A stretch of DNA of 42,769 nt from the IMG/VR virus record IMGVR_UViG_3300042430_000669, positions 1 to 42,769 of that record; one strand, written 5' to 3'. A program made the position numbers and the translations under genes. Source of the stretch: a virus. The notes under the pieces were generated by a model, which was not told the origin of the DNA, made no database searches, and worked only from the letters and a program-made list of their open reading frames with translations. Numbering within the stretch: position 1 is the stretch's first letter; every line of letters starts with the position of its first letter. Below are positions 8,934 through 29,955 of this stretch, in pieces.

Positions 8934-9166
8934 TTATCATCTCTTAGATATACATCTCTTAGATACAATGGAACGTCTGAATCAACAATAGGTTGGCCAA
9001 AGTGTTCTTTAATAATCAAGTTCCACGGCCTTCCCTTGCCAAAAATATTATAACTATAGGCTAAATCAGCAGACTCTTGTATAATTAACTGGGCAAACAA
9101 ATCCAATCCTTCTTGGTCTGGATTGTCTTGTATGCCAGCTTTTAGTTTAAGTTCTTGTAAATTCAT
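8930..9166 (-). CDS. Hypothetical phage protein
   Basis: A 78-aa acidic soluble protein beginning MNLQELKLKAG, with FAQLIIQESADLAYSYN in the middle and a tail of LRDVYLRDDK. Overlaps the zinc-ribbon gene by 4 nt and shares one base (TAATG) with the VWA gene. I do not recognise the family. Confidence 0.7.
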   Translation of the reverse strand: MNLQELKLKAGIQDNPDQEGLDLFAQLIIQESADLAYSYNIFGKGRPWNLIIKEHFGQPIVDSDVPLYLRDVYLRDDK

Positions 9167-10458
9167 TATCGGCCTGCCTCTTCTTCGTAGTAAGCATGTT
9201 GTCCAAATGGTGGAACCACCGTGGTATTACCATGTATGATAAACACAGTATCGCAATACTGTTCGTCACCCCAAGAACCACACGGGTATCCATCTGTGAA
9301 CATAATGTGCCGTTTGGGTTGAATCTCTTCTTGCTTAAAGTATTCAAACACACAATCAAAGTCTGTACCGCCGCCACCTTTAGGTTCATAATCACAGATG
9401 CTGTCTAGGTTCTCACTGTCGAACTGTTGTGGATTGTAAGTGTTGGTATCAAAGCTCACAATATGAATACGATATGCTGGGAAGCTATCCATAATGCCTT
9501 GCACTTCTGATAAAAAGTCTTTGAGCATTTTAGCATCGATACTACCTGATGTATCAATACTAACAGCAATATCAATCATTTGATCTAATTGCATGCCAGG
9601 CATTACAGCATCTATGTGCCATCCTCTACGACTGCTACGCATCCAAGTATAGTCTGACTTAATAGTGCTTTCTAACTGCATACGCAATAGCTCACGCCAG
9701 TTCATCTTGGGTGCAGTCATATCTTGGATCAAACGCTTAACACCTGCTGGCAAGTTGCCAGCACCATCGCTAGCCGCTGCGGCAGCCAGAACAGCTTCTT
9801 TGATCTCGTCTTTGATTTGCTGTTTTTCTTCCTCGGTAAGTTTTGGTTTACCCCCACCTTTGCCTTTTTGATCGCCTTCCTTGTCGCCACTTTCCCCATT
9901 GTCCTCGCCATCTAGGTGATCATCTAGCAATTTGTCAATGAGATCACTAATATCAATCTTTTCGGCATTCTCATACAAGATGTCGTAGACTTCTTCAGCA
10001 CTCATACCTTCATACTTTGAATCATATAAACAAGGCACAGTGGTAATAAATTCTCCCACACGGTGCTTCTTCAAGTCGGCATTGACACAATAGTCATCGG
10101 CAATGTTCCAAAGTTGAGGATCTCTATCGCCACGCCGGCCCATGTGGTCATATACACAATGCAATACTTCATGTCCGAACAGAAATTCAACCTCTTTGGG
10201 TTTGAGCATGTCAATAAATTTAGTATTGTAGTAAAAATTACGCCCATCTGTTGCGGCAGTAGGACACCACTCATCGGCATTGACCAATTTTAAACGGGTG
10301 GCTAAGTTACCAAAGAAACTGGCACGGAGCAATAAACCCACGCGAGCAGTAATCAATTTTTCGCGAACGACATTATCTAATTTAGGATCAGTGGGTCCAC
10401 ACAAGTCCTTAAACTTATCTGATTCTTTTTTATTTGCTGTAGTAGTGGCTGTGCTCAT
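9166..10458 (-). CDS. VWA-type putative metallopeptidase
   Basis: A 430-aa protein in two parts. Residues about 30-180 form a metallopeptidase-like domain with HEVLH at 96-100 (HExxH zinc motif) and WNIADDYCVNADL. A low-complexity acidic/Gly/Lys linker covers about 182-225. The C-terminal part is von Willebrand A-like with the metal-ion site DTSGS at 302-306 and GGGGTDF further on. Such proteins pair with MoxR AAA ATPases, and a MoxR-like ATPase lies at 12539-13621 in the same orientation. Likely role: ATP-driven protein remodelling or a chaperone. Target unknown. Preceded by a near-consensus promoter. Confidence 0.85.
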   Translation of the reverse strand: MSTATTTANKKESDKFKDLCGPTDPKLDNVVREKLITARVGLLLRASFFGNLATRLKLVNADEWCPTAATDGRNFYYNTKFIDMLKPKEVEFLFGHEVLHCVYDHMGRRGDRDPQLWNIADDYCVNADLKKHRVGEFITTVPCLYDSKYEGMSAEEVYDILYENAEKIDISDLIDKLLDDHLDGEDNGESGDKEGDQKGKGGGKPKLTEEEKQQIKDEIKEAVLAAAAASDGAGNLPAGVKRLIQDMTAPKMNWRELLRMQLESTIKSDYTWMRSSRRGWHIDAVMPGMQLDQMIDIAVSIDTSGSIDAKMLKDFLSEVQGIMDSFPAYRIHIVSFDTNTYNPQQFDSENLDSICDYEPKGGGGTDFDCVFEYFKQEEIQPKRHIMFTDGYPCGSWGDEQYCDTVFIIHGNTTVVPPFGQHAYYEEEAGR

Positions 10459-12538: not shown

Positions 12539-13621
12539 CTAGGCCGAAGCTGATAAAATGTATTTGCCGTAGCGTTGATGAAACTCATCAAAGTTCTTCA
12601 ACTTAGTAGGTTGGAACGGTAAATTGTATGTGGTAAGGGCAATTCGAGCACCCATGACCACTAACTCAGTTTCAAAATTCTTCATCATATAGGCAAAGAA
12701 GTTATCGGCCATTGCGTGGAATTCTTTGTCGGCTATTTTCTTTTCTACAGCATCTTTAAGTTCATAGCACATACTAATAACCAAACTATACATTGCCGAA
12801 ACTTCTTTAACTTCTAACTCTTTGACTTTACCAGACAAAATATCTTCTGGATTAGGCATGCGACCAGAAATCTTGCGGTGAGCCATAAACTTAACAGCCA
12901 GCCCTTCACCCACAGTACCAGCAACTAGATTCATCACAGTATCGTCATCGCCATCATCATCCAAAAATTCGCTTACAAAGGTCCATGAACGAGGAGTTGC
13001 GAATGCACGACTAGCTGATTTAGGATCAAAGTCATACAGATCCTGTTTAGCAAAACTCAAGTAACCTACTACGTCCTTGTGTATGTTATGTTTAACCGCC
13101 CACTCTTGCCATGATGCAAAGTCGCATTTCATTTCTTGGTGAATGAAACGGTTGGCAAGCGGAGTAGGCATACGGTATGTAACGCCTTTGTCACTTTCTC
13201 GATTACCAGCGGCAACAATAACCACATTCTTTGGTAATTTGTACTTACCGATACGGCGGTTAAGAATTAGCTGATAAGCCGCAGCCTGTACACTCGGTGC
13301 AGAACTATTCATTTCATCTAAAAACAAGATCACAATAGGATACTGTGCAGCTAGTTCTTCGGTAGGCAAATCAATTGGTTCTGCCCAGTCCATTTTACCA
13401 TTATCCTTATTATAAAACGGAATGCCACGAATATCTGTGGGCTCCATTTGGCCTAGGCGTAAGTCAATCATATGACCCTTGAGTTCTTCAGCAAGATCTG
13501 CCACTAACTCCGACTTTCCAATACCAGGAGGACCCCATAGGAACATTGGTCGTTGATGTTTAAATGCTTTGAGCAAACTGCGACGAGCTTGACTTGATGT
13601 GACTTGTCTTGTTTCTGACAT
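12539..13621 (-). CDS. MoxR-like AAA+ ATPase
   Basis: A 360-aa AAA+ ATPase. Walker A is GPPGIGKS at residues 30-37, Walker B IVILFLDE ends at D102-E103, followed by the sensor region VVIVAAGNRESD and an arginine-rich ANRFIH. Length and motif order fit the MoxR group, which acts with VWA-domain partners. The VWA metallopeptidase at 9166-10458 is in the same direction, separated by the small-protein array. It has its own promoter at 13667-13695. The substrate of the pair is unknown. Confidence 0.88.
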   Translation of the reverse strand: MSETRQVTSSQARRSLLKAFKHQRPMFLWGPPGIGKSELVADLAEELKGHMIDLRLGQMEPTDIRGIPFYNKDNGKMDWAEPIDLPTEELAAQYPIVILFLDEMNSSAPSVQAAAYQLILNRRIGKYKLPKNVVIVAAGNRESDKGVTYRMPTPLANRFIHQEMKCDFASWQEWAVKHNIHKDVVGYLSFAKQDLYDFDPKSASRAFATPRSWTFVSEFLDDDGDDDTVMNLVAGTVGEGLAVKFMAHRKISGRMPNPEDILSGKVKELEVKEVSAMYSLVISMCYELKDAVEKKIADKEFHAMADNFFAYMMKNFETELVVMGARIALTTYNLPFQPTKLKNFDEFHQRYGKYILSASA

Positions 13622-14459: not shown

Positions 14460-15593
14460 CTAATAAGTGCTTATTTTGTATAGTGGGCTCAGATGCCCTT
14501 TGAGTCCTTCTTCAACTGTGCCCTTGTTAAACCACTTTTTTCCGCAGATACGTTCTAGTTCTAGTAAACTATTAATCCACTTAAATTTAGCTTCAAACTC
14601 GCCCTCGATAAACCAACGACTCATTTCATTCCAAACTGCCTTGGTTGGTTTTTTAATTTGCCAAGTGCTAGTGTCCCAATCAGGATAGATGCTAAGATTA
14701 ACTTCACGGTAGTATGCTTCGTCGTGAAAGCTGGCAATGTTGGTCATGTGTTTAATTAGGCCAACTTGATCGGTGGCCTTTAACCAACGAACTACTTCAT
14801 GACTTTGTTTAACTGCTAATTCGGGCATGTTAGGAGTCCAGTAGAAGTATTCGTCATTTTCCCAGTACTCGCCGAGGATATCATTGGTAGGTAGTGTGCC
14901 AGTGGTCATAATAACATCTAAAAAAGCAAAGTAAATTGAGTTGTCATCTCTAAGCAAGCGAGGTTTATCTATACCATATACAAATCCAACTTTCTTACCT
15001 TTGTGTAATAAATCGTTATGCTCACGGAATATCTTGTGAAATTTACTACGCACCATACAGGTAGGATCAAATCTAACACCGGCAGTCCAAAACCAATCTG
15101 GATCATTGGCAGCCGCAAGTATGTGGCGAGTCCAGTCAAACACATTTACCTTGATCTTCTTTTCTTCTGCTAACTTTTTAACTAAAGGTAGACTTTGTTG
15201 GATTTCGCGAGTGTAATATCCTGGTGTTGTATCTAGTCCTAATGTACCGTACATTTTCTCTTCGGCTTCAAATGCGCCAAAGATGTAGATTTCGTCTAGT
15301 TTAATATCGTTGTCAATAAAGACTTTAAGTATGTTCCATGAATCAACACCACCTGAATAGAACAACACCAGGTGGTCGTATGCTTCGCGTAACTGTAGGG
15401 CTCGTTGTCGGTATAACTCTTTTAACGCTACCGGAGGCTCTTGATCCCACTTGGCCGTACCAAATATAGCATCGTGGTAATCCCACTTGATGTAGCCGCC
15501 ATGTTGGTTGACTTCCATGATGGCTTCGAGCTTGTTGAAAAAAGGCTTACCGTTTGCACGGTAAACCCCTTTATTATGATACAGATATGTCAT
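14460..15593 (-). CDS. PP-loop ATP-pyrophosphatase-like protein
   Basis: A 377-aa soluble protein with the PP-loop motif SGGVDS at residues 80-85 (FYSGGVDSWN), as in N-type ATP pyrophosphatases such as asparagine synthetase, QueC and ThiI, which adenylate a substrate. An N-terminal segment RANGKPFFNKLEA is followed by a Trp-rich domain, and the long C-terminal part has no recognisable domain. Full-length asparagine synthetase would need an N-terminal glutaminase domain, which is absent. The start shares a base (TAATG) with the stop of the TctC-like gene, so translation is coupled. Substrate unknown. Confidence 0.75.
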   Translation of the reverse strand: MTYLYHNKGVYRANGKPFFNKLEAIMEVNQHGGYIKWDYHDAIFGTAKWDQEPPVALKELYRQRALQLREAYDHLVLFYSGGVDSWNILKVFIDNDIKLDEIYIFGAFEAEEKMYGTLGLDTTPGYYTREIQQSLPLVKKLAEEKKIKVNVFDWTRHILAAANDPDWFWTAGVRFDPTCMVRSKFHKIFREHNDLLHKGKKVGFVYGIDKPRLLRDDNSIYFAFLDVIMTTGTLPTNDILGEYWENDEYFYWTPNMPELAVKQSHEVVRWLKATDQVGLIKHMTNIASFHDEAYYREVNLSIYPDWDTSTWQIKKPTKAVWNEMSRWFIEGEFEAKFKWINSLLELERICGKKWFNKGTVEEGLKGHLSPLYKISTY

Positions 15594-16510
15594 TAATCGG
15601 CCTGTATCTGATTATGATACTTTTTGAGCAGTTGTTCACTTAACATTAAACTTTTATTATAATACATGGTAGTAGGAAAGTTATCAAACTGCGGAGGACG
15701 CATATCACTGGATTGTTGTATTTCTTTAGCACCTACTGATTGTGTGGCTTTGGTTAGTATTTTTGAAATTTCTTCGTGTCTTATGGCCGGCATATTACGA
15801 TTAGCAATCACAATATTAAACACATAAGGAGCAGTGATTCCTTGCTCTAATAAAGTTTTTACATTGGGTGCTTGCGGATGACGTTGGGGACAACTCATAG
15901 CCAACATTTTTAACTTTGAATTTTTCAACTTTATCTGTTCATAGTTACTGACACGCTCTAGAACCATGTTTACGCTACCGTCGGCAGCCATAAGAATTAG
16001 CGCATCAAAATTTGATTTAAACGGCACATACCTTACCTTAAATCCATATTGTTGAGCCAATTGCAATGCAGTTAGGTGAGCCGAATTGCCAAAGCCTACA
16101 CCACCTACTACCAGTTCACCTTGGCCTCTTAGACTAGCTACACCACGACGTTCATCACCAACATTTGTGATTACTGCCCAACAGGCATCTCCTAAGGCCC
16201 AAACAGGGTCATAATCAGACTGATTCAATTTGCCGCTTGAGACATGTTCTACAAACTTTGGTGCTACGATTGCCAAACGAGTTTGTGGTTGCTCGTCCAT
16301 ATACCTTACTGCAATGATTTGTTCGCCACCGGGCTTGAATTCCAAGATAAAGTTATAACGATTCTGATCTCGATTGGCCTGTTCAAAAATTTTAAATATA
16401 GCCGCAGAGCCAGAGTGACTGGCTGCATACGGACTAGCGATGGTAATTGTTTCTGCAGAATGTGCAGACATTGAGGCAGTAGCGATTAACGCTATTAACA
16501 ATTTTAACAC
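15593..16510 (-). CDS. TctC/Bug-family periplasmic substrate-binding protein
   Basis: A 305-aa protein with GTG start. Residues 1-19 form a signal peptide ending AHSA before ETITIAS. The mature part has FKPGGEQIIAVRYM, GGVGFGNSAHLTALQLAQ and VPFKSNFDALILMAADGSVN, which are typical of the tripartite tricarboxylate receptor (Bug) family, abundant in Burkholderiales. No TctA or TctB transporter gene is adjacent. In a phage it may supply or intercept a host uptake system, which is inference. It has a strong promoter, and its Shine-Dalgarno sequence lies in a hairpin. First of a coupled pair with the PP-loop gene. Confidence 0.8.
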   Translation of the reverse strand: MLKLLIALIATASMSAHSAETITIASPYAASHSGSAAIFKIFEQANRDQNRYNFILEFKPGGEQIIAVRYMDEQPQTRLAIVAPKFVEHVSSGKLNQSDYDPVWALGDACWAVITNVGDERRGVASLRGQGELVVGGVGFGNSAHLTALQLAQQYGFKVRYVPFKSNFDALILMAADGSVNMVLERVSNYEQIKLKNSKLKMLAMSCPQRHPQAPNVKTLLEQGITAPYVFNIVIANRNMPAIRHEEISKILTKATQSVGAKEIQQSSDMRPPQFDNFPTTMYYNKSLMLSEQLLKKYHNQIQAD

Positions 16511-16660: not shown

Positions 16661-16828
16661 CTATCGACCTCGACCGGCACTTCTTGTTGGCGGTTTATTG
16701 TTGATGGGCGCCGCGGTTTTTATTTTTTTTACTTTAGCATCGGTGATAGGAGCATCACCATTTTCTGGATGATGGATACCTTTCTTTTTGTCTAGTGCTC
16801 GTTGTAACGTGTCTGATAGTTTGCTCAT
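16661..16828 (-). CDS. Small basic protein, 55 aa
   Basis: Starts MSKLSDTLQRALDKKKG and ends TRSAGRGR. AAGGA is placed correctly 6 nt upstream. Rich in Lys, Arg and Pro, likely disordered and possibly nucleic-acid binding. Lies directly downstream of the tRNA-Thr gene in the same direction. Not recognised. Confidence 0.65.
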   Translation of the reverse strand: MSKLSDTLQRALDKKKGIHHPENGDAPITDAKVKKIKTAAPINNKPPTRSAGRGR

Positions 16829-16845: not shown

Positions 16846-16922
16846 TGGTTCCCGGTGTCGGATTCGAACTGACCACATCAGCATTACAAATGCTGCGCTC
16901 TGCCTAATGAGCTAACCGGGAA
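16846..16922 (-). tRNA. tRNA-Thr (TGT)
   Basis: Cloverleaf with acceptor TTCCCGG/CCGGGAA, anticodon stem CAGCA/TGCTG with loop TTTGTAA (anticodon TGT, reads ACA), T-loop TTCGAAT and encoded CCA. It is embedded between two small protein genes. Confidence 0.93.
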
Positions 16923-16926
16923 TAGA

Positions 16927-17190
16927 TTATTCCGTGGCCTGCAATTTTTCTTCGGCAACCAACTCTGGAACTTCTGCAATCACTGCTTCCCCAACAACTT
17001 TCTTGCTCACTTGCTGTGTTTTCATGCGATAGCACAAAGCCCGTGTAATTTTTGGAACATGCTTTTTACGAGCACCTTCTAATAATTTTTCTAATTGAGA
17101 AATATTTAATGGTCCAAGTCTTGTTTTACCAGTCTTGGTTAACATTGAGTTTGCCTTACGAGTTTTTTGATTGCCGCCTTTAGCTGCCAT
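16927..17190 (-). CDS. Small basic phage protein
   Basis: An 87-aa protein with a Lys/Arg-rich first half (GGNQKTRKANSM, GKTRLGPL) and an acidic tail VPELVAEEKLQATE. It contains ISQLEKLLEGARKKHVPKITRALCYR. Possibly DNA- or RNA-binding. It lies 19 nt after the omega-like gene in the same unit. No family recognised. Confidence 0.7.
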   Translation of the reverse strand: MAAKGGNQKTRKANSMLTKTGKTRLGPLNISQLEKLLEGARKKHVPKITRALCYRMKTQQVSKKVVGEAVIAEVPELVAEEKLQATE

Positions 17191-17210: not shown

Positions 17211-17438
17211 TTATTTTATCTTAGCTAGATAATCTTCTAGATTGACTTGACCGCCTTCTACTTCCATCAAGGCGTCAACCGGAGTTATATAGCGTGTGGT
17301 ATCCTCACGATGAATACGTTTAAGTTCACGTAGACGCTGTGCAGCAATTAAAACAAGATCATATCTACCCCCACCGGCTTGACGAACACATTCTTCGGTA
17401 TCAATGATAGGGCCACGGCTTGCGATTCTTGGTTTCAT
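17211..17438 (-). CDS. rpoZ: RNA polymerase omega-subunit-like protein
   Basis: A 75-aa protein whose residues 25-40 (RYDLVLIAAQRLRELK) match the core motif of bacterial omega (N/R-RF/YDLVLxAAxRARxL), preceded by DTEECVRQAGGG as in omega N-termini. Omega helps to fold and hold the beta' subunit of RNA polymerase in the cytoplasm. Usual length is 70-100 aa, so it is full size. The C-terminal part (ALMEVEGGQVNLEDYLAK) also fits the helix and turn of omega. It is a phage-borne copy by context. It could replace or compete with host omega. Similarity is judged from motif recall only. Confidence 0.75.
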   Translation of the reverse strand: MKPRIASRGPIIDTEECVRQAGGGRYDLVLIAAQRLRELKRIHREDTTRYITPVDALMEVEGGQVNLEDYLAKIK

Positions 17439-17446
17439 AACTATCC

Positions 17447-17611
17447 TTACTTGTTTAGAATTTGATTTTGTTTGAATGCTTTAATAATTTCGTGAGTGTG
17501 TTTTTTACTGGCCATAATCTGCCGACTTGCAACAGCCCGTTTCTCACTCTTTGTCCACTGGCCTGATAATGTACGATCTCTTTCTGATGCTGTTTGTTTT
17601 GGTTTCGCCAT
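17447..17611 (-). CDS. Small basic protein, 54 aa
   Basis: Starts MAKPKQTASERDRTLS; this ATG has AAGGA 8 nt upstream and is preferred to an upstream in-frame ATG without one. Highly basic (KKHTHEIIKAFKQNQ), soluble and likely helical. First gene of a short operon with the omega-like gene. Not recognised. Confidence 0.65.
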   Translation of the reverse strand: MAKPKQTASERDRTLSGQWTKSEKRAVASRQIMASKKHTHEIIKAFKQNQILNK

Positions 17612-17672: not shown

Positions 17673-18902
17673 ATGGACAAATCAGCAACGTATTGTGTAA
17701 TGCCTCATTTAGGAATGGCTCTTCAAAATCACTCTGATCTTTGTTGTTGTAACATCAATAAATATAGTTGGCAAGATGAAAAACGAAATACAATGTTTGT
17801 ATATAGCCATCCTATAGAATTGGCTTATAAAAGCCATACTAGAAAAATAATTGCTGCCAATCTTGACAACGGAATTAAGCATCCTAGTTGTCAACCATGT
17901 TGGGATCTAGAGACAGCAGGAAAAAAATCTGTACGGGAGAAATTGAACAGTAAGTTTGGTTCGGTAGAACCATTACTAGACCAACCACGTATTTTGATTA
18001 TTAAACCTGGAAATACCTGTAACTTTGCGTGCCGCATGTGTAACCCTATAACTAGTAGTAATTGGTATCACGATGGATACGATTTAGAAAAAGACGGGCT
18101 TGCTAGTTCTAGCTGGTATGAAAATATTAGATCAACTGACGATGTTGCTAAATTGACCTTTAACGAATATACAAAGACGTTTGAAACGATTAGAAATAGT
18201 TTTAATCAAGACAACAAAGAATTTTGGGACACATTAAAAAAATGGATTGAGAATTTAATTTACATTGATATTTATGGCGGCGAACCATTTTTGACTCCGG
18301 CTATGTTTGATTTATTAGAGCACGGTGTTAACATTGGTGCTAGTAAAAACATTACCATAGGAATACATACAAATGCCAGCATAAACAACACTAGGTATTT
18401 GGAAATTTTATCTCAGTATAAAGAAGTATCCTTTCATGTTAGTATAGATTCAGCGGTACCGGCGCAGTTAGAATACATACGACATAAAGCAGATTTTGAC
18501 ACAGTGATAGAAAATTCTATAAAATTTAAGAATTATTTTAAAGATCATCCTAATGTAAAAACAAATGTAACAACAACTATTACTCCGTTGAATGTATTCT
18601 ATGTAGACACTATAATTAAAGACGTAACAGATCTTTTGGGATTGTCTCTCATTGGAATAAACATTGTTACTACACCAGAATACGACATAAGACATCTGCC
18701 GGTTCCAGTTAAAGATTATCTTATTAACAATATTAAAGAACCCACAGTTGTTAATTTTCTAAAACAAACTATACCGGGTTGCGATGTTGAGTGGCCAAAG
18801 TTTTGCCAGACCACTAATAAATTAGATCAGTTACGTAGGCAAAGTTTTGCCAAGGTGTTTCCTGAGTGGTGGACCTTGTTAGAACCTTATTGGATTAAAT
18901 AA
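17673..18902 (+). CDS. Twitch-domain radical SAM protein
   Basis: A 409-aa radical SAM enzyme. The cluster motif is C116-x3-C120-x2-C123 in NTCNFACRMC, followed by YGGEPFLTP (GGEP, SAM binding). An N-terminal set of cysteines (C8, C24-C26, C73, C76 with PSCQPCW) suggests an auxiliary cluster domain of the twitch/SPASM type. Family members modify peptides, proteins or small molecules by radical chemistry. It is on the plus strand and directly precedes the 144-aa gene at 18907, which may be a partner. Substrate unknown. Confidence 0.85.
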   Translation: MDKSATYCVMPHLGMALQNHSDLCCCNINKYSWQDEKRNTMFVYSHPIELAYKSHTRKIIAANLDNGIKHPSCQPCWDLETAGKKSVREKLNSKFGSVEPLLDQPRILIIKPGNTCNFACRMCNPITSSNWYHDGYDLEKDGLASSSWYENIRSTDDVAKLTFNEYTKTFETIRNSFNQDNKEFWDTLKKWIENLIYIDIYGGEPFLTPAMFDLLEHGVNIGASKNITIGIHTNASINNTRYLEILSQYKEVSFHVSIDSAVPAQLEYIRHKADFDTVIENSIKFKNYFKDHPNVKTNVTTTITPLNVFYVDTIIKDVTDLLGLSLIGINIVTTPEYDIRHLPVPVKDYLINNIKEPTVVNFLKQTIPGCDVEWPKFCQTTNKLDQLRRQSFAKVFPEWWTLLEPYWIK

Positions 18903-20013: not shown

Positions 20014-20103
20014 TGGCGGAGAGCGTGAGATTCGAACTCACGATACAGTTGCCTGTATGTCTGCTTAGTAGGCAGATGCCATCGTCCACTCGGCCAGCTC
20101 TCC
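20014..20103 (-). tRNA. tRNA-Ser (ACT anticodon)
   Basis: A class II tRNA with long variable arm. Acceptor GGAGAGC/GCTCTCC, anticodon stem TCTGC/GCAGA with loop CTACTAA (anticodon ACT), T-arm GTGAG/CTCAC with TTCGAAT, discriminator G and encoded CCA. The usual bacterial anticodon for AGU/AGC is GCT; A at position 34 is rare outside tRNA-Arg(ACG). Confidence 0.88.
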
Positions 20104-20975: not shown

Positions 20976-21052
20976 TGGTGCCCCTGGTAGGATTCGGACC
21001 TACAGATACTGCCTTCTTGGAGCAGTGACTTTACCAGTTTGTCTACAGGGGT
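20976..21052 (-). tRNA. Atypical tRNA, anticodon AAG by position
   Basis: A tRNA-like fold: acceptor ACCCCTG/CAGGGGC with an A-C mismatch at 1-72, D-arm GAC/GTC, T-arm GTAGG/CCTAC with loop TCCGAAT, and encoded CCA. Anticodon stem CTGCT/GGCAG closes with T-G, and the loop CCAAGAA has C at position 33, where U is nearly universal. The anticodon would be AAG but there is no long variable arm as in tRNA-Leu. Identity uncertain; could be a degenerate gene. Confidence 0.6.
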
Positions 21053-21168: not shown

Positions 21169-21774
21169 CTATGAAACTTGTGTGGTTCCATTTCCATTCT
21201 TGAAACCAACAACACCACCTTCTGCTTCAATGCGTTTGATAACATCTTCAAACAGGACAGGAGCAAAGTCAGTTTGTTCTACACAGACGCAATGATAGCG
21301 TTCATCTATTGTTTCGCAACCATGAGCCACGAATTCTTCAAGTGTTCGCGCAGGCCGCATGACACGACTAGCATGCAAGTGTCCGTGAATGTTAACCCCA
21401 AACCGACCAAGACTTTCACTATGTATAGGAATATGAGAGAGAATCATTCCGTTCATGACATGGTATCCACGTAGACTACGGAAATACTTCGTGTAGTCTT
21501 CATCCTTAAAGATGTCATGGTTACCACGGATAAGAACTTTGTCACCGTTGAGTCTATCTAGGATAGGCAATGCTTTTCTATTAATTACAACATCTCCCAA
21601 GTGATAAACTTTGTCGTTAGGTTTGACCCGTTCATTCCAAGCCTTGACCATGAACTCGTCCATCTCATCTGGATCAGTCCATGGGCGTAACTTGGTTACA
21701 CCATCGTTACGTGTGAACTTACAAACTCCCAAATGCCCAAAATGTGTATCAGACACCAAAAATACGCTGGGCAT
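21169..21774 (-). CDS. Metallophosphoesterase
   Basis: A 201-aa calcineurin-like phosphoesterase. Metal-binding motifs appear in family order: D9-x-H11 (SDTHFGH), GD61 (HLGDVV), GNHD at 84-87, LSHIP and GHLH. Length fits compact YfcE-like or phage enzymes. It would hydrolyse phosphodiesters of nucleotides or small RNAs; the specific substrate is unknown. It has AAGGAGG at ideal distance and a promoter (21806-21834). After the TAG stop the frame stays open for 27 codons; see findings. Confidence 0.88.
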   Translation of the reverse strand: MPSVFLVSDTHFGHLGVCKFTRNDGVTKLRPWTDPDEMDEFMVKAWNERVKPNDKVYHLGDVVINRKALPILDRLNGDKVLIRGNHDIFKDEDYTKYFRSLRGYHVMNGMILSHIPIHSESLGRFGVNIHGHLHASRVMRPARTLEEFVAHGCETIDERYHCVCVEQTDFAPVLFEDVIKRIEAEGGVVGFKNGNGTTQVS

Positions 21775-22924: not shown

Positions 22925-22953
22925 ATTATAGACAGGTATTTATACCTTGTCAA
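22925..22953 (-). promoter_or_regulatory. Consensus sigma-70 promoter of 33-aa gene
   Basis: Minus strand TTGACA (22953-22948), 17-nt spacer, TATAAT (22930-22925), both boxes exact. The spacer has a 6-bp inverted repeat AGGTAT/ATACCT and a TATAAATA (22944-22937), which may be operator or late-promoter sequence. Confidence 0.85.
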
Positions 22954-22963
22954 CCTCTTATTC

Positions 22964-22971
22964 TATAAATA
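22964..22971 (+). promoter_or_regulatory. T4 late-promoter-like box
   Basis: TATAAATA on the plus strand, ending 5 nt before the ATG of the radical SAM gene at 22977. No -35 box is visible. This is the consensus of T4 late promoters, but a single 8-mer in AT-rich DNA can occur by chance. Confidence 0.4.
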
Positions 22972-22976
22972 TTTTC

Positions 22977-23972
22977 ATGCTAAAACTCACTGACATTCGT
23001 CAGGTCCAAATAGAACTAACCACCCGTTGTAATGCCCGTTGCCCTATGTGTGTGCGTAACTACCGCGGCATAGATTTTAATTCGGGCTATCCACTAACCG
23101 AGTTGAGTTTAGCGGATATTCAACATATTTGTCAACCAGAGTTTCTTCGGCAACTAACACGTGGTATAAGCTTCAACGGTAATCTTGGTGACTTTGGTGC
23201 TGCCAAAGATGGATTAGAAATTGTAGAATATCTTGTTGAACACCAAGTTCCGGTACATATCAACACCAATGGTAGTATGCGTACATCAGAATGGTGGACT
23301 AAGTTTGCCTTGCCTGGAGTTAGTATTGGATGGGCCCTAGACGGGATCGATCAAGAGACTCATGTGAAGTACAGACAAGATACCAATTGGGACACAGTTA
23401 TAAGTCATGCTCGTGCATTTATTGACGCCGGTGGATATGCTATCTGGAGATTTATTCCGTTTGACCATAATCGTGACCAGGAGCCTGCTGCTAGATTGTT
23501 AGCAGAGGCATGGGGATTTAAACAGTTTGAAAACATACACGAAGGTCGAGATCGAGGCCCTGTGTTCACCCGTGATGGAGAACTCAGTCATTGGCTAGGA
23601 CCTGAACAAGATTGGCCAATAGATAGTAAGCGCATGGTTGAAGATCATGTCACTTGGTTTGACCACCGTACAGTAAAACCAGTTAAAGATACCCCTGTGC
23701 TTAATATAACATGTCAACACAAAAGGCAACAAGAACTATACATAGCCGCCGACGGCTCAGTGTGGCCTTGTTGCTTTTTAGGATTCTATCCAGGTCAGAT
23801 GACACATCCTGGAAATGAACAGTTAATTCCGTTAACAAAAGAAAACAATGCTTTACAATATAGTTTGGATCATTGTATTTCTTGGTTCGACAGCATAGAA
23901 GAAACCTGGACTAAATCCAGTGTTAATGAAGGTCGACTGTACGGTTGCGTAAACAGTTGTAATCGAGTATGA
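22977..23972 (+). CDS. Radical SAM protein with SPASM-like C-terminus
   Basis: A 331-aa protein; the ATG at 22977 (MLKLTDIRQVQIELTTRC) is preferred over an upstream TTG. The cluster motif C18-x3-C22-x2-C25 is in TTRCNARCPMC. The C-terminal half has CQHKRQQELYIAADGSVWPCC and later CVNSC, a pattern like SPASM auxiliary-cluster domains. This group acts in peptide or protein modification and sometimes sugar chemistry. Followed by three overlapping genes with glycosyltransferase-like features. Substrate unknown. Confidence 0.82.
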   Translation: MLKLTDIRQVQIELTTRCNARCPMCVRNYRGIDFNSGYPLTELSLADIQHICQPEFLRQLTRGISFNGNLGDFGAAKDGLEIVEYLVEHQVPVHINTNGSMRTSEWWTKFALPGVSIGWALDGIDQETHVKYRQDTNWDTVISHARAFIDAGGYAIWRFIPFDHNRDQEPAARLLAEAWGFKQFENIHEGRDRGPVFTRDGELSHWLGPEQDWPIDSKRMVEDHVTWFDHRTVKPVKDTPVLNITCQHKRQQELYIAADGSVWPCCFLGFYPGQMTHPGNEQLIPLTKENNALQYSLDHCISWFDSIEETWTKSSVNEGRLYGCVNSCNRV

Positions 23973-28199: not shown

Positions 28200-29351
28200 T
28201 TAGAATGTATGACGTACACCTACTGCATAGTTACTAGAAGACAATGCTGGTGCTAAAGTAGCAACATTGGTACTACTAGTTTTGTTCTGACCGTAGATTG
28301 CATACAAGTTTGTGCGCTTGCTCAACCAGTAGTTAGAACCAATCTGGAATGCGTTGAAGTTAACTGTAGGAGTTGTTGGACCAAATGCGTCATAACGACC
28401 ATTACCTACACTAGCCCAGGCATCAATGGTAGAAGTAAAGTTACCACGAACGCCGATCTGTTGTGCAGTACGGCTGAGATAATTATTACTACTTAAAGTG
28501 CTAGTAGCTTTGCGTGAAACATATTGAGCAAAGGCCTTGACTACGCCAAAGTCATAAGTTGCACCAACATACTTCTGTGTGTCTTGTGTGTTTACACCGC
28601 CACCAGGAATAACGCTACTAGAGTTGGTTGTCCAATATGTAGGACTGGAAAGAGTAAATGTTTGTTCGCTTTTTAAAGTTTGATAAGCGGCTACAACATA
28701 TAACTTGTTCCAAGCATAATCAGCACTCAAACCATAACCATTGTAGTTCGTGTTGCCGCCGGTTGAGTTTGTTTGAGTAGTGTTGCTGTTTGCTACAGTA
28801 GCGAAACCACCAGCACTGAAACCTTTAAAGTTATCACTCTTCAGACTTACTGTATTAGCTGTGCGAATTGTGTAAGCTGTGTTACTGCCGTTGCCAGAAG
28901 TAGTAGAGCTTGCACCAGTTGCATAGATAACATCACCGATCAAGTTATTTTGTTGACCAGCATCAGTTGCTGCCACTGCTGTGTGGATTGATGTATACTG
29001 AGTACCGAAAGCAACTTGGCCAATACCATTTTGTTTGATACCAACAAAACTTTGACGGTTGTCCCAGGTACTTGCTTGACCTTGGTTAGGTGTCAATCCA
29101 GTTTCAACAGTAAAGAAGGCTGAACGTCCGCCACCTAAATCTTCAGTGCCACGGAAACCTAAGCGGCTGGTTTGTTCTGCACTGTTACCGAATGTACTGT
29201 TTGTGGTTTTTGCAGCCTTGTTACCAACTGCGCCTTCTGCACTTGATCCGATGTAACCAGTATCTAAGAGACCATAGATGCTGACACTAGACTGTGCGTA
29301 AGCAGTGGTGATACCTGCGGTTGCTAGTAATGCTACTAGTAGTTTTTTCAT
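28200..29351 (-). CDS. Outer-membrane porin, Burkholderiales type
   Basis: A 383-aa protein. A signal peptide (MKKLLVALLATAGITTAYA) is followed by QSSVSIYGLLDTGY, SRLGFRGTEDLGGGRSAFF and WDNRQSFVGI, typical of the Gram-negative porin family of Burkholderiales. The C-terminus YAVGVRHTF ends with the Phe used for BAM-mediated outer-membrane insertion. Length fits a 16-strand trimeric porin. AAGGAAAC provides the ribosome-binding site; promoter and terminator flank it as a single-gene unit. It lies in phage-like surroundings, which is unusual. Possible roles: exclude other phages or alter permeability. Alternatively, recently acquired host DNA. Confidence 0.92.
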   Translation of the reverse strand: MKKLLVALLATAGITTAYAQSSVSIYGLLDTGYIGSSAEGAVGNKAAKTTNSTFGNSAEQTSRLGFRGTEDLGGGRSAFFTVETGLTPNQGQASTWDNRQSFVGIKQNGIGQVAFGTQYTSIHTAVAATDAGQQNNLIGDVIYATGASSTTSGNGSNTAYTIRTANTVSLKSDNFKGFSAGGFATVANSNTTQTNSTGGNTNYNGYGLSADYAWNKLYVVAAYQTLKSEQTFTLSSPTYWTTNSSSVIPGGGVNTQDTQKYVGATYDFGVVKAFAQYVSRKATSTLSSNNYLSRTAQQIGVRGNFTSTIDAWASVGNGRYDAFGPTTPTVNFNAFQIGSNYWLSKRTNLYAIYGQNKTSSTNVATLAPALSSSNYAVGVRHTF

Positions 29352-29446: not shown

Positions 29447-29475
29447 ATGTTAACATAGTAGTTAACGAATGTCAA
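29447..29475 (-). promoter_or_regulatory. Probable promoter of porin
   Basis: Minus strand TTGACA (29475-29470), 17-nt spacer, TAACAT (29452-29447, 4/6 match). It directly follows the tmRNA terminator. Confidence 0.55.
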
Positions 29476-29477
29476 TA

Positions 29478-29503
29478 AAAATGGGCTCCGAAGAGCCCAT
29501 TTT
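29478..29503 (-). terminator. Terminator of tmRNA
   Basis: A perfect stem AAAATGGGCTC/GAGCCCATTTT with a UUCG tetraloop on the minus strand, followed by U's. It closes the permuted tmRNA gene. Confidence 0.9.
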
Positions 29504-29506
29504 GGT

Positions 29507-29751
29507 GGTTTCTGTTACGAGGCATTTCCTGCCCTAGGCGGCCTAAGCTGCCAATGCGAACTGTTCGTCGTTTGCTTTTACGTTATTTGCTTTTAACGAG
29601 TACTCCTCTCGTGTTGCCTTCTTTTCTATCTCACCACGTCGAAACCAAGTCATCCCCAAGAAATACACTATTTCAAATGCACTTTTTGGAGATGTCGGGA
29701 ATTGAACCCGAGTCCGCAATGCCTTTAATCTAAAGGAATTACAACAATTCT
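29507..29751 (-). ncRNA. ssrA: Circularly permuted (two-piece) tmRNA
   Basis: On the minus strand the acceptor half comes first: T-arm TCGGG/CCCGA with TTCAATT, then acceptor CATCTCC plus A (29694-29687). A 29-nt spacer follows, then the other half starting GGGGATG (29657), which pairs with CATCTCC, and TTGGTTTCGACG as in standard tmRNA. The tag frame (29575-29543) encodes ANDEQFALAA then TAG. CCA is not encoded. This order is that of permuted tmRNAs, processed into two pieces, for ribosome rescue and protein tagging. The 5' boundary is uncertain; hairpins at 29713-29752 probably belong to it. Confidence 0.9.
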
Positions 29752-29955
29752 TTACAGCGGAATAATATTTGATGCTTGCTTGCCTTTTGGGCCTTGCACT
29801 ACATCAAAAGTTACCGCTTGATTCTCTTTGAGACTTTTAAATCCATTGCTATTAATAGCTGAGAAATGTGCAAACAATTCGTCACCACCACCATCTGGAG
29901 TAATAAATCCAAAACCTTTTGCATCGTTAAACCACTTTACTTTACCTGTTGCCAT
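29752..29955 (-). CDS. Cold-shock domain protein
   Basis: A 67-aa single cold-shock domain with RNP1 KGFGFI at residues 13-18 and RNP2 LFAHF at 27-31, an RNA and single-stranded DNA chaperone. Full length for CspA-like proteins. The start MATGKVKWF is set by AAGGAAG upstream. It stops at the presumed 5' end of the tmRNA, so the two may share a transcript. Such genes are known in some phages. Confidence 0.93.

Follow-up and report, generated by a model that had tools for sequence, protein, structure and literature searches.

On the minus strand of a stretch of viral DNA of 42,769 nucleotides, called the window in the following, an open reading frame of 75 amino acids (17211–17438, ATG start) was found which, judged by its sequence, encodes a genuine homologue of the omega subunit of RNA polymerase (RpoZ/Rpb6-like), which in bacteria is the smallest subunit of this enzyme. 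It is likely that this viral omega replaces or supplements the host omega on beta' and thereby creates a phage-modified host RNA polymerase.

Sequence and Predicted Structure

The start codon of the omega gene is preceded by a Shine-Dalgarno-like AAGGA on the same minus strand (17444–17448), which was read from the sequence and lies 5 nt before the ATG. Residues 25–40 (RYDLVLIAAQRLRELK) had been recognised in the original prediction as the core peptide of omega, and this assignment is strengthened by a comparison with an HMM made solely from bacterial omegas, in which the window protein scored 23.0 bits, whereas its residues, shuffled about 20,000 times, gave 11.3 bits at best. The match is thus far above chance. 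The expectation of a hit to the Rpb6 model of Pfam held clearly for the relatives, and for the window protein itself the hit stayed slightly under the threshold: residues 24–66 matched PF01192 (Rpb6/omega) with an E value of 5.5e-5 and 23.5 bits, the curated cut-off being 26 bits, but relatives score about 30–62 bits, many of them well over this cut-off, which was exceeded in 16 of 32 viral records. The match to the NCBI rpoZ equivalog TIGR00690 (E 0.0022) was likewise under the cut-off of the model. When the window protein was used as a single sequence to search the PDB, the top 17 matches were omega chains with a best E value of 0.0087. A profile of 38 viral members yielded 31 PDB matches, all 31 of them omegas (best E 2e-17), in line with the match to RpoZ that had been foreseen. 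In the alignment of these 38 members the core motif residues Y26, D27, V29, L30, I31, and A33 are invariant. With omega models, distant members of the viral family obtain far higher scores than the clade of the window protein (55 bits for L024 and 62 bits for G017), and they reach 45–66 bits with the HMM of bacterial omegas. As the window clade grades into clear omegas via these relatives, the window protein can be regarded as a member of the viral omega family.

Structure prediction with AlphaFold2 and the family alignment suggested four helices (pLDDT 83, pTM 0.69), with low confidence for the first 10 residues (mean pLDDT 52). The predicted fold is omega-like. The best nine Foldseek matches were omega chains, with E values of at least 0.36 (about 0.4), and among the matches listed by VIA-align 50 of 50 were omega chains or models with Z scores of 5.5–7.5, the best reaching 7.5 over 66 residues; identity to E. 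coli omega was about 31% over 61 residues. The model therefore resembles solved omega chains, as had been anticipated when a fold model was proposed as a check. These fold matches are moderate, which is expected for a helical protein of 75 residues, and they support the sequence result rather than replace it: with a Foldseek E value of about 0.4 and VIA-align Z scores below 8, it is the sequence evidence that carries the weight.

A small, all-helical fold and a single-sequence Pfam score under the cut-off would also be compatible with an unrelated phage protein of small size that has put the short motif and the helices to a use other than that of omega. This is very unlikely, since the family profile finds omegas only, the distant members (45–66 bits) and the window protein (23 bits versus 11.3 for the shuffles) are recognised by the HMM of bacterial omegas, and the matches span nearly the whole protein.

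The Viral Omega Family and Its Carriers

A first scan of IMG/VR yielded 46 relatives in other contigs, and a profile-guided scan at least 88, of which 80 were kept. Twelve relatives are 75–84% identical to the window protein, and the identity of the others goes down to about 35%. The gene occurs as a single copy per record and is under strong purifying selection, the dN/dS within the window clade having a median of about 0.065 for unsaturated pairs and values of 0.05–0.08 for pairs with the window. Conservation of a viral omega under such strong selection indicates that omega is of importance in the infected cell.

A tree built from 67 rows splits the viral rows cleanly from the bacterial ones, with a support of 100/100 and a branch of 1.49 changes per column. 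Because the bacterial set consisted of Pseudomonadota only and the viral set had been fetched largely via the motif YD[LM]VLI[AG]A, the tree demonstrates a separation from probable hosts; a single origin relative to bacteria at large does not follow from it.

Of the 13 largest records with an omega gene, 9 also encode a T4-type gp23 capsid protein, among them the records of 344, 228, 216, 183, 177, 157, 148, and 131 kb, and a terminase was found on 4 of 32 omega-bearing records. Judged by these genes the carriers are phages, and they appear to be large uncultured relatives of T4. That the family might represent host rpoZ which contaminates viral contigs is hardly credible. Matches in the collections of cultured phages are, or look, bacterial or contamination-like, as contamination would have it, but the viral omegas form a group of their own (100/100 support), have conserved viral neighbours, and share their contigs with gp23 and terminase, and on these grounds contamination was ruled out.

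With the capsid proteins of the cultured phages Vibrio 2.275.O, PA5oct (Pseudomonas), and Sinorhizobium Phosso, that of the 228-kb relative shares about 65% identity; in these three phages, the closest cultured ones by capsid, the family-profile search found no omega. No match to the viral omega was obtained in PHROGs. Among 50,697 phage records omega matches were confined to apparent bacterial contamination or mislabelled bacterial records, i.e., to annotated omegas in bacterial or bacterial-looking records and to unannotated, contamination-like records. A weak tblastn match in Pseudomonas phage LKO4 (E 0.9) was judged to be due to chance, matches on plasmids resemble ordinary bacterial rpoZ, and the scan of GTDB contig genomes found only chromosomal omegas of alphaproteobacteria. 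Among openly licensed papers no report of a phage omega was found. The fold and the family are already known; a phage omega unaccompanied by other polymerase subunits was not found in openly licensed papers, PHROGs, or genuine cultured phage genomes, and may have been mentioned in other papers before.

The Polymerase Partner

A polymerase encoded by the phage itself was considered as the partner of omega and did not turn up in the records searched. The beta' subunit (PF00623) was found in 0 of 32 omega-bearing records and the beta subunit (PF00562) in 0 of 13; the controls for both searches were positive in 14 of 14 reference genomes. These negative results are no proof of absence, since most records are fragments and split subunits of the phiKZ type could escape either model. 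A T7-type single-subunit RNA polymerase was not found in 14 records, which is a weak result as the control genomes gave no match either. As neither beta' nor beta nor a T7-type polymerase was detected in the searched records, the RNA polymerase of the host is the presumed partner, and most likely the viral omega joins this enzyme. The original prediction had held that a phage omega could remodel host RNA polymerase, and it fits this idea that no core polymerase genes turned up in the searched carrier records. A search for sigma region 2 gave one match over the cut-off, in a record of 130 kb, and one weak match, so that a general link of omega phages to sigma factors cannot be claimed.

In the course of infection the viral omega would bind to the host beta' at the site of the host omega, which it may displace or supplement, and the result would be a host RNA polymerase modified by the phage. 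An alternative, independent effect might be that the extra omega helps the assembly or the stability of RNA polymerase. Phages often inhibit host RNA polymerase by small proteins, and the viral omega, which does not have the extended C-terminal tail seen in E. coli omega, might accordingly be a poisoned subunit which fills the beta' site, blocks host factors, and brings host transcription to a stop. Such a role is improbable: the core is conserved as in a working omega, no added inhibitory domain was seen, and the carriers appear to need the host RNA polymerase themselves. According to a review, most jumbo phages rely on host RNA polymerase (PMC13282480), and the core of the multisubunit polymerase of phage AR9 is active without additional subunits (PMC7598289).

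The N-Terminus and ppGpp

Omega is a chaperone of beta' and part of ppGpp site 1 (PMC5811629, PMC6416229). The Met-Ala-Arg (MAR) start is the ppGpp-binding motif of RpoZ (PMC6416229) and contributes to this site 1 (PMC5811629). All 34 bacterial omega rows that were located start with MAR; 23 of them came from the phylum sample, in which 7 of 30 loci were not located, and 11 from the genome scan. The start is visible in about 81 viral rows; 7 of these have MAR and 2 have MPR, many of the viral rows being near copies and not independent losses. In the window protein MAR is absent, and P10 and I11 are found at the positions of A2 and R3, within one residue by either alignment. In the window clade the motif is replaced by an N-terminal extension of 9–10 residues. 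As the structure prediction is poor for residues 1–10, a contact of Arg4 or Arg8 of the window protein with the ppGpp pocket is still conceivable.

With MAR kept in some viral omegas, the loss of ppGpp contacts cannot be a function shared by the whole family. The motif is a mark of omegas which respond to ppGpp and not a defining feature of omegas in general. As the window protein and most of its relatives have lost MAR, the block of ppGpp action envisaged in the original prediction is a testable idea, and a weaker ppGpp response of a polymerase containing the viral omega is plausible from the sequence, with ppGpp site 2 (DksA) expected to remain in the modified enzyme. More speculatively, the different N-terminal extension in place of MAR would make the polymerase less responsive to ppGpp, and phage genes would then still be transcribed in starving cells. 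Only tentatively can it be proposed that a widespread lineage of large T4-like phages swaps the host omega for a viral one without the contacts of ppGpp site 1, yielding a phage-specific polymerase which escapes the stringent response.

Relation to Known Systems

With bacterial RpoZ (PF01192, TIGR00690, COG1758) the viral omega has in common the core helix R[FY]DLVL.AA.R.R, the segment A[LI].E[IV]..G, the size, and the predicted fold over about 61–66 residues. Unlike bacterial RpoZ, it is the product of a phage gene, belongs to a group apart, and has a short C-terminus which ends with DYLxK, the tail of E. coli omega being absent. Rpb6 of eukaryotic polymerases and of those of large eukaryotic viruses belongs to the same Pfam superfamily and is, in the viruses, likewise a small subunit that the virus encodes for a multisubunit RNA polymerase. 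Large eukaryotic viruses with Rpb6 encode the remaining polymerase too, whereas no other polymerase genes were found in the omega phages, the partner presumably being that of the host. Jumbo phages of the phiKZ/AR9 type also carry genes of transcription machinery and represent the reverse case: they encode beta/beta'-like polypeptides, and in the omega phages an omega was found and no beta or beta'. T4-like phages keep the host RNA polymerase and modify it (AsiA, gp33, gp55, RpbA, ADP-ribosylation), a strategy which the omega carriers would share. None of these T4 modifiers is known to be homologous to a core subunit.

Phages are known to add proteins to host RNA polymerase, to modify it chemically, or to supply a polymerase of their own. 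Openly licensed papers yielded no description of a phage using its own version of a core subunit without encoding the other subunits, and the swap of omega, if true, would be a viral takeover by replacement of a core subunit. As the role of omega in bacteria is subtle (beta' assembly and ppGpp site 1), the viral version may also be a way to probe omega function, and to ask whether phages need to escape ppGpp.

Genomic Neighbourhood

In the original prediction the omega gene was placed in a unit with two small basic proteins and a tRNA. This arrangement is present in the window, and it mostly recurs in close relatives, where omega is followed by three open reading frames, two of them for small basic proteins (clusters 14, 15, and 16). 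In the window, cluster 14 comes before omega. The first small basic protein (cluster 14; 17447–17611, minus strand) is encoded immediately upstream of omega in the same direction. Its ATG at 17611 (MAKPKQ...) agrees with the starts in relatives, and the longest reading frame extends to 17650; it is found in 14 loci, mostly adjoining or near omega. Downstream of omega, and again co-directional, lies the second one (cluster 15; 16927–17190, minus strand), which has this downstream position in 13 loci. It is followed by a tRNA-Thr(TGT) (16846–16921, minus strand), also located downstream of omega in the loci L002, L007, L009, and L014, and by a reading frame of 55 amino acids (16661–16828, minus strand). 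The sequence of the latter, MSKLSDTLQRALDKKKG...KPPTRSAGRGR, matches on direct comparison the C-terminal half of the cluster 16 protein, which is encoded downstream of omega in relatives. Matches of the two small neighbours to UVSSA_N, taurine-binding, and ATP synthase delta models were weak, at chance level, and were discarded.

A calcineurin-like phosphoesterase (cluster 1; 21169–21774, minus strand), assigned by PF00149 (E 6e-6) and synteny, neighbours omega in close as well as distant clades. The distant clades have otherwise different neighbours, often with a MoxR-type ATPase (cluster 10) nearby.

In each of the nine loci examined for tRNAs, omega lies among tRNA genes, which number 2 to 19 per locus of about 10 kb. 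Such an island for expression support would suit a spare, host-like omega which was captured long ago and which only boosts assembly and stability of the host RNA polymerase, with regulation unchanged. The main body of the protein retains the omega motif and some members keep MAR, as this explanation would have it, but in most members the N-terminus of the ppGpp site is replaced, and a branch of 1.49 changes per column separates the family from the omegas of Pseudomonadota. The replaced N-terminus together with the long branch points to an altered function. A plain role in assembly support has somewhat less than an even chance of being correct and is a strong rival, especially in view of the tRNA-rich setting and the members which keep MAR.

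Two further tRNA calls in the window are unusual. The one called Leu(AAG) (20976–21052, minus strand) has 77 nt, which is short for a leucine tRNA, and an unusual anticodon, and the same call is made in L002 and L061. The tRNA-Ser(ACT) (20014–20103, minus strand), with an anticodon unusual in bacteria, where GCT is usual, occurs again in L002, L007, L009, and L061. A phage tmRNA gene (29452–29776, minus strand) encodes the tag peptide ANDEQFALAA, and in L044 a tmRNA with an odd tag was called near omega. The tmRNA gene of the window adjoins that of a Gram-negative porin (28200–29351, minus strand; PF13609, E 4.8e-37). A periplasmic substrate-binding protein of the TctC/Bug type (15593–16510, minus strand; PF03401, E 3.6e-10) is also found, as cluster 9, on other omega-bearing contigs, e.g., L061. 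Porin and TctC-like protein together suggest a Burkholderiales-like host. A DUF2201/VWA putative metallopeptidase and a MoxR-like AAA ATPase (9166–10458 and 12539–13621, both on the minus strand) form a chaperone-like pair, and distant clades also retain the MoxR-like ATPase in the vicinity of omega. Two radical SAM proteins (17673–18902 and 22947–23972) are encoded in the tRNA region on the plus strand, opposite to omega.
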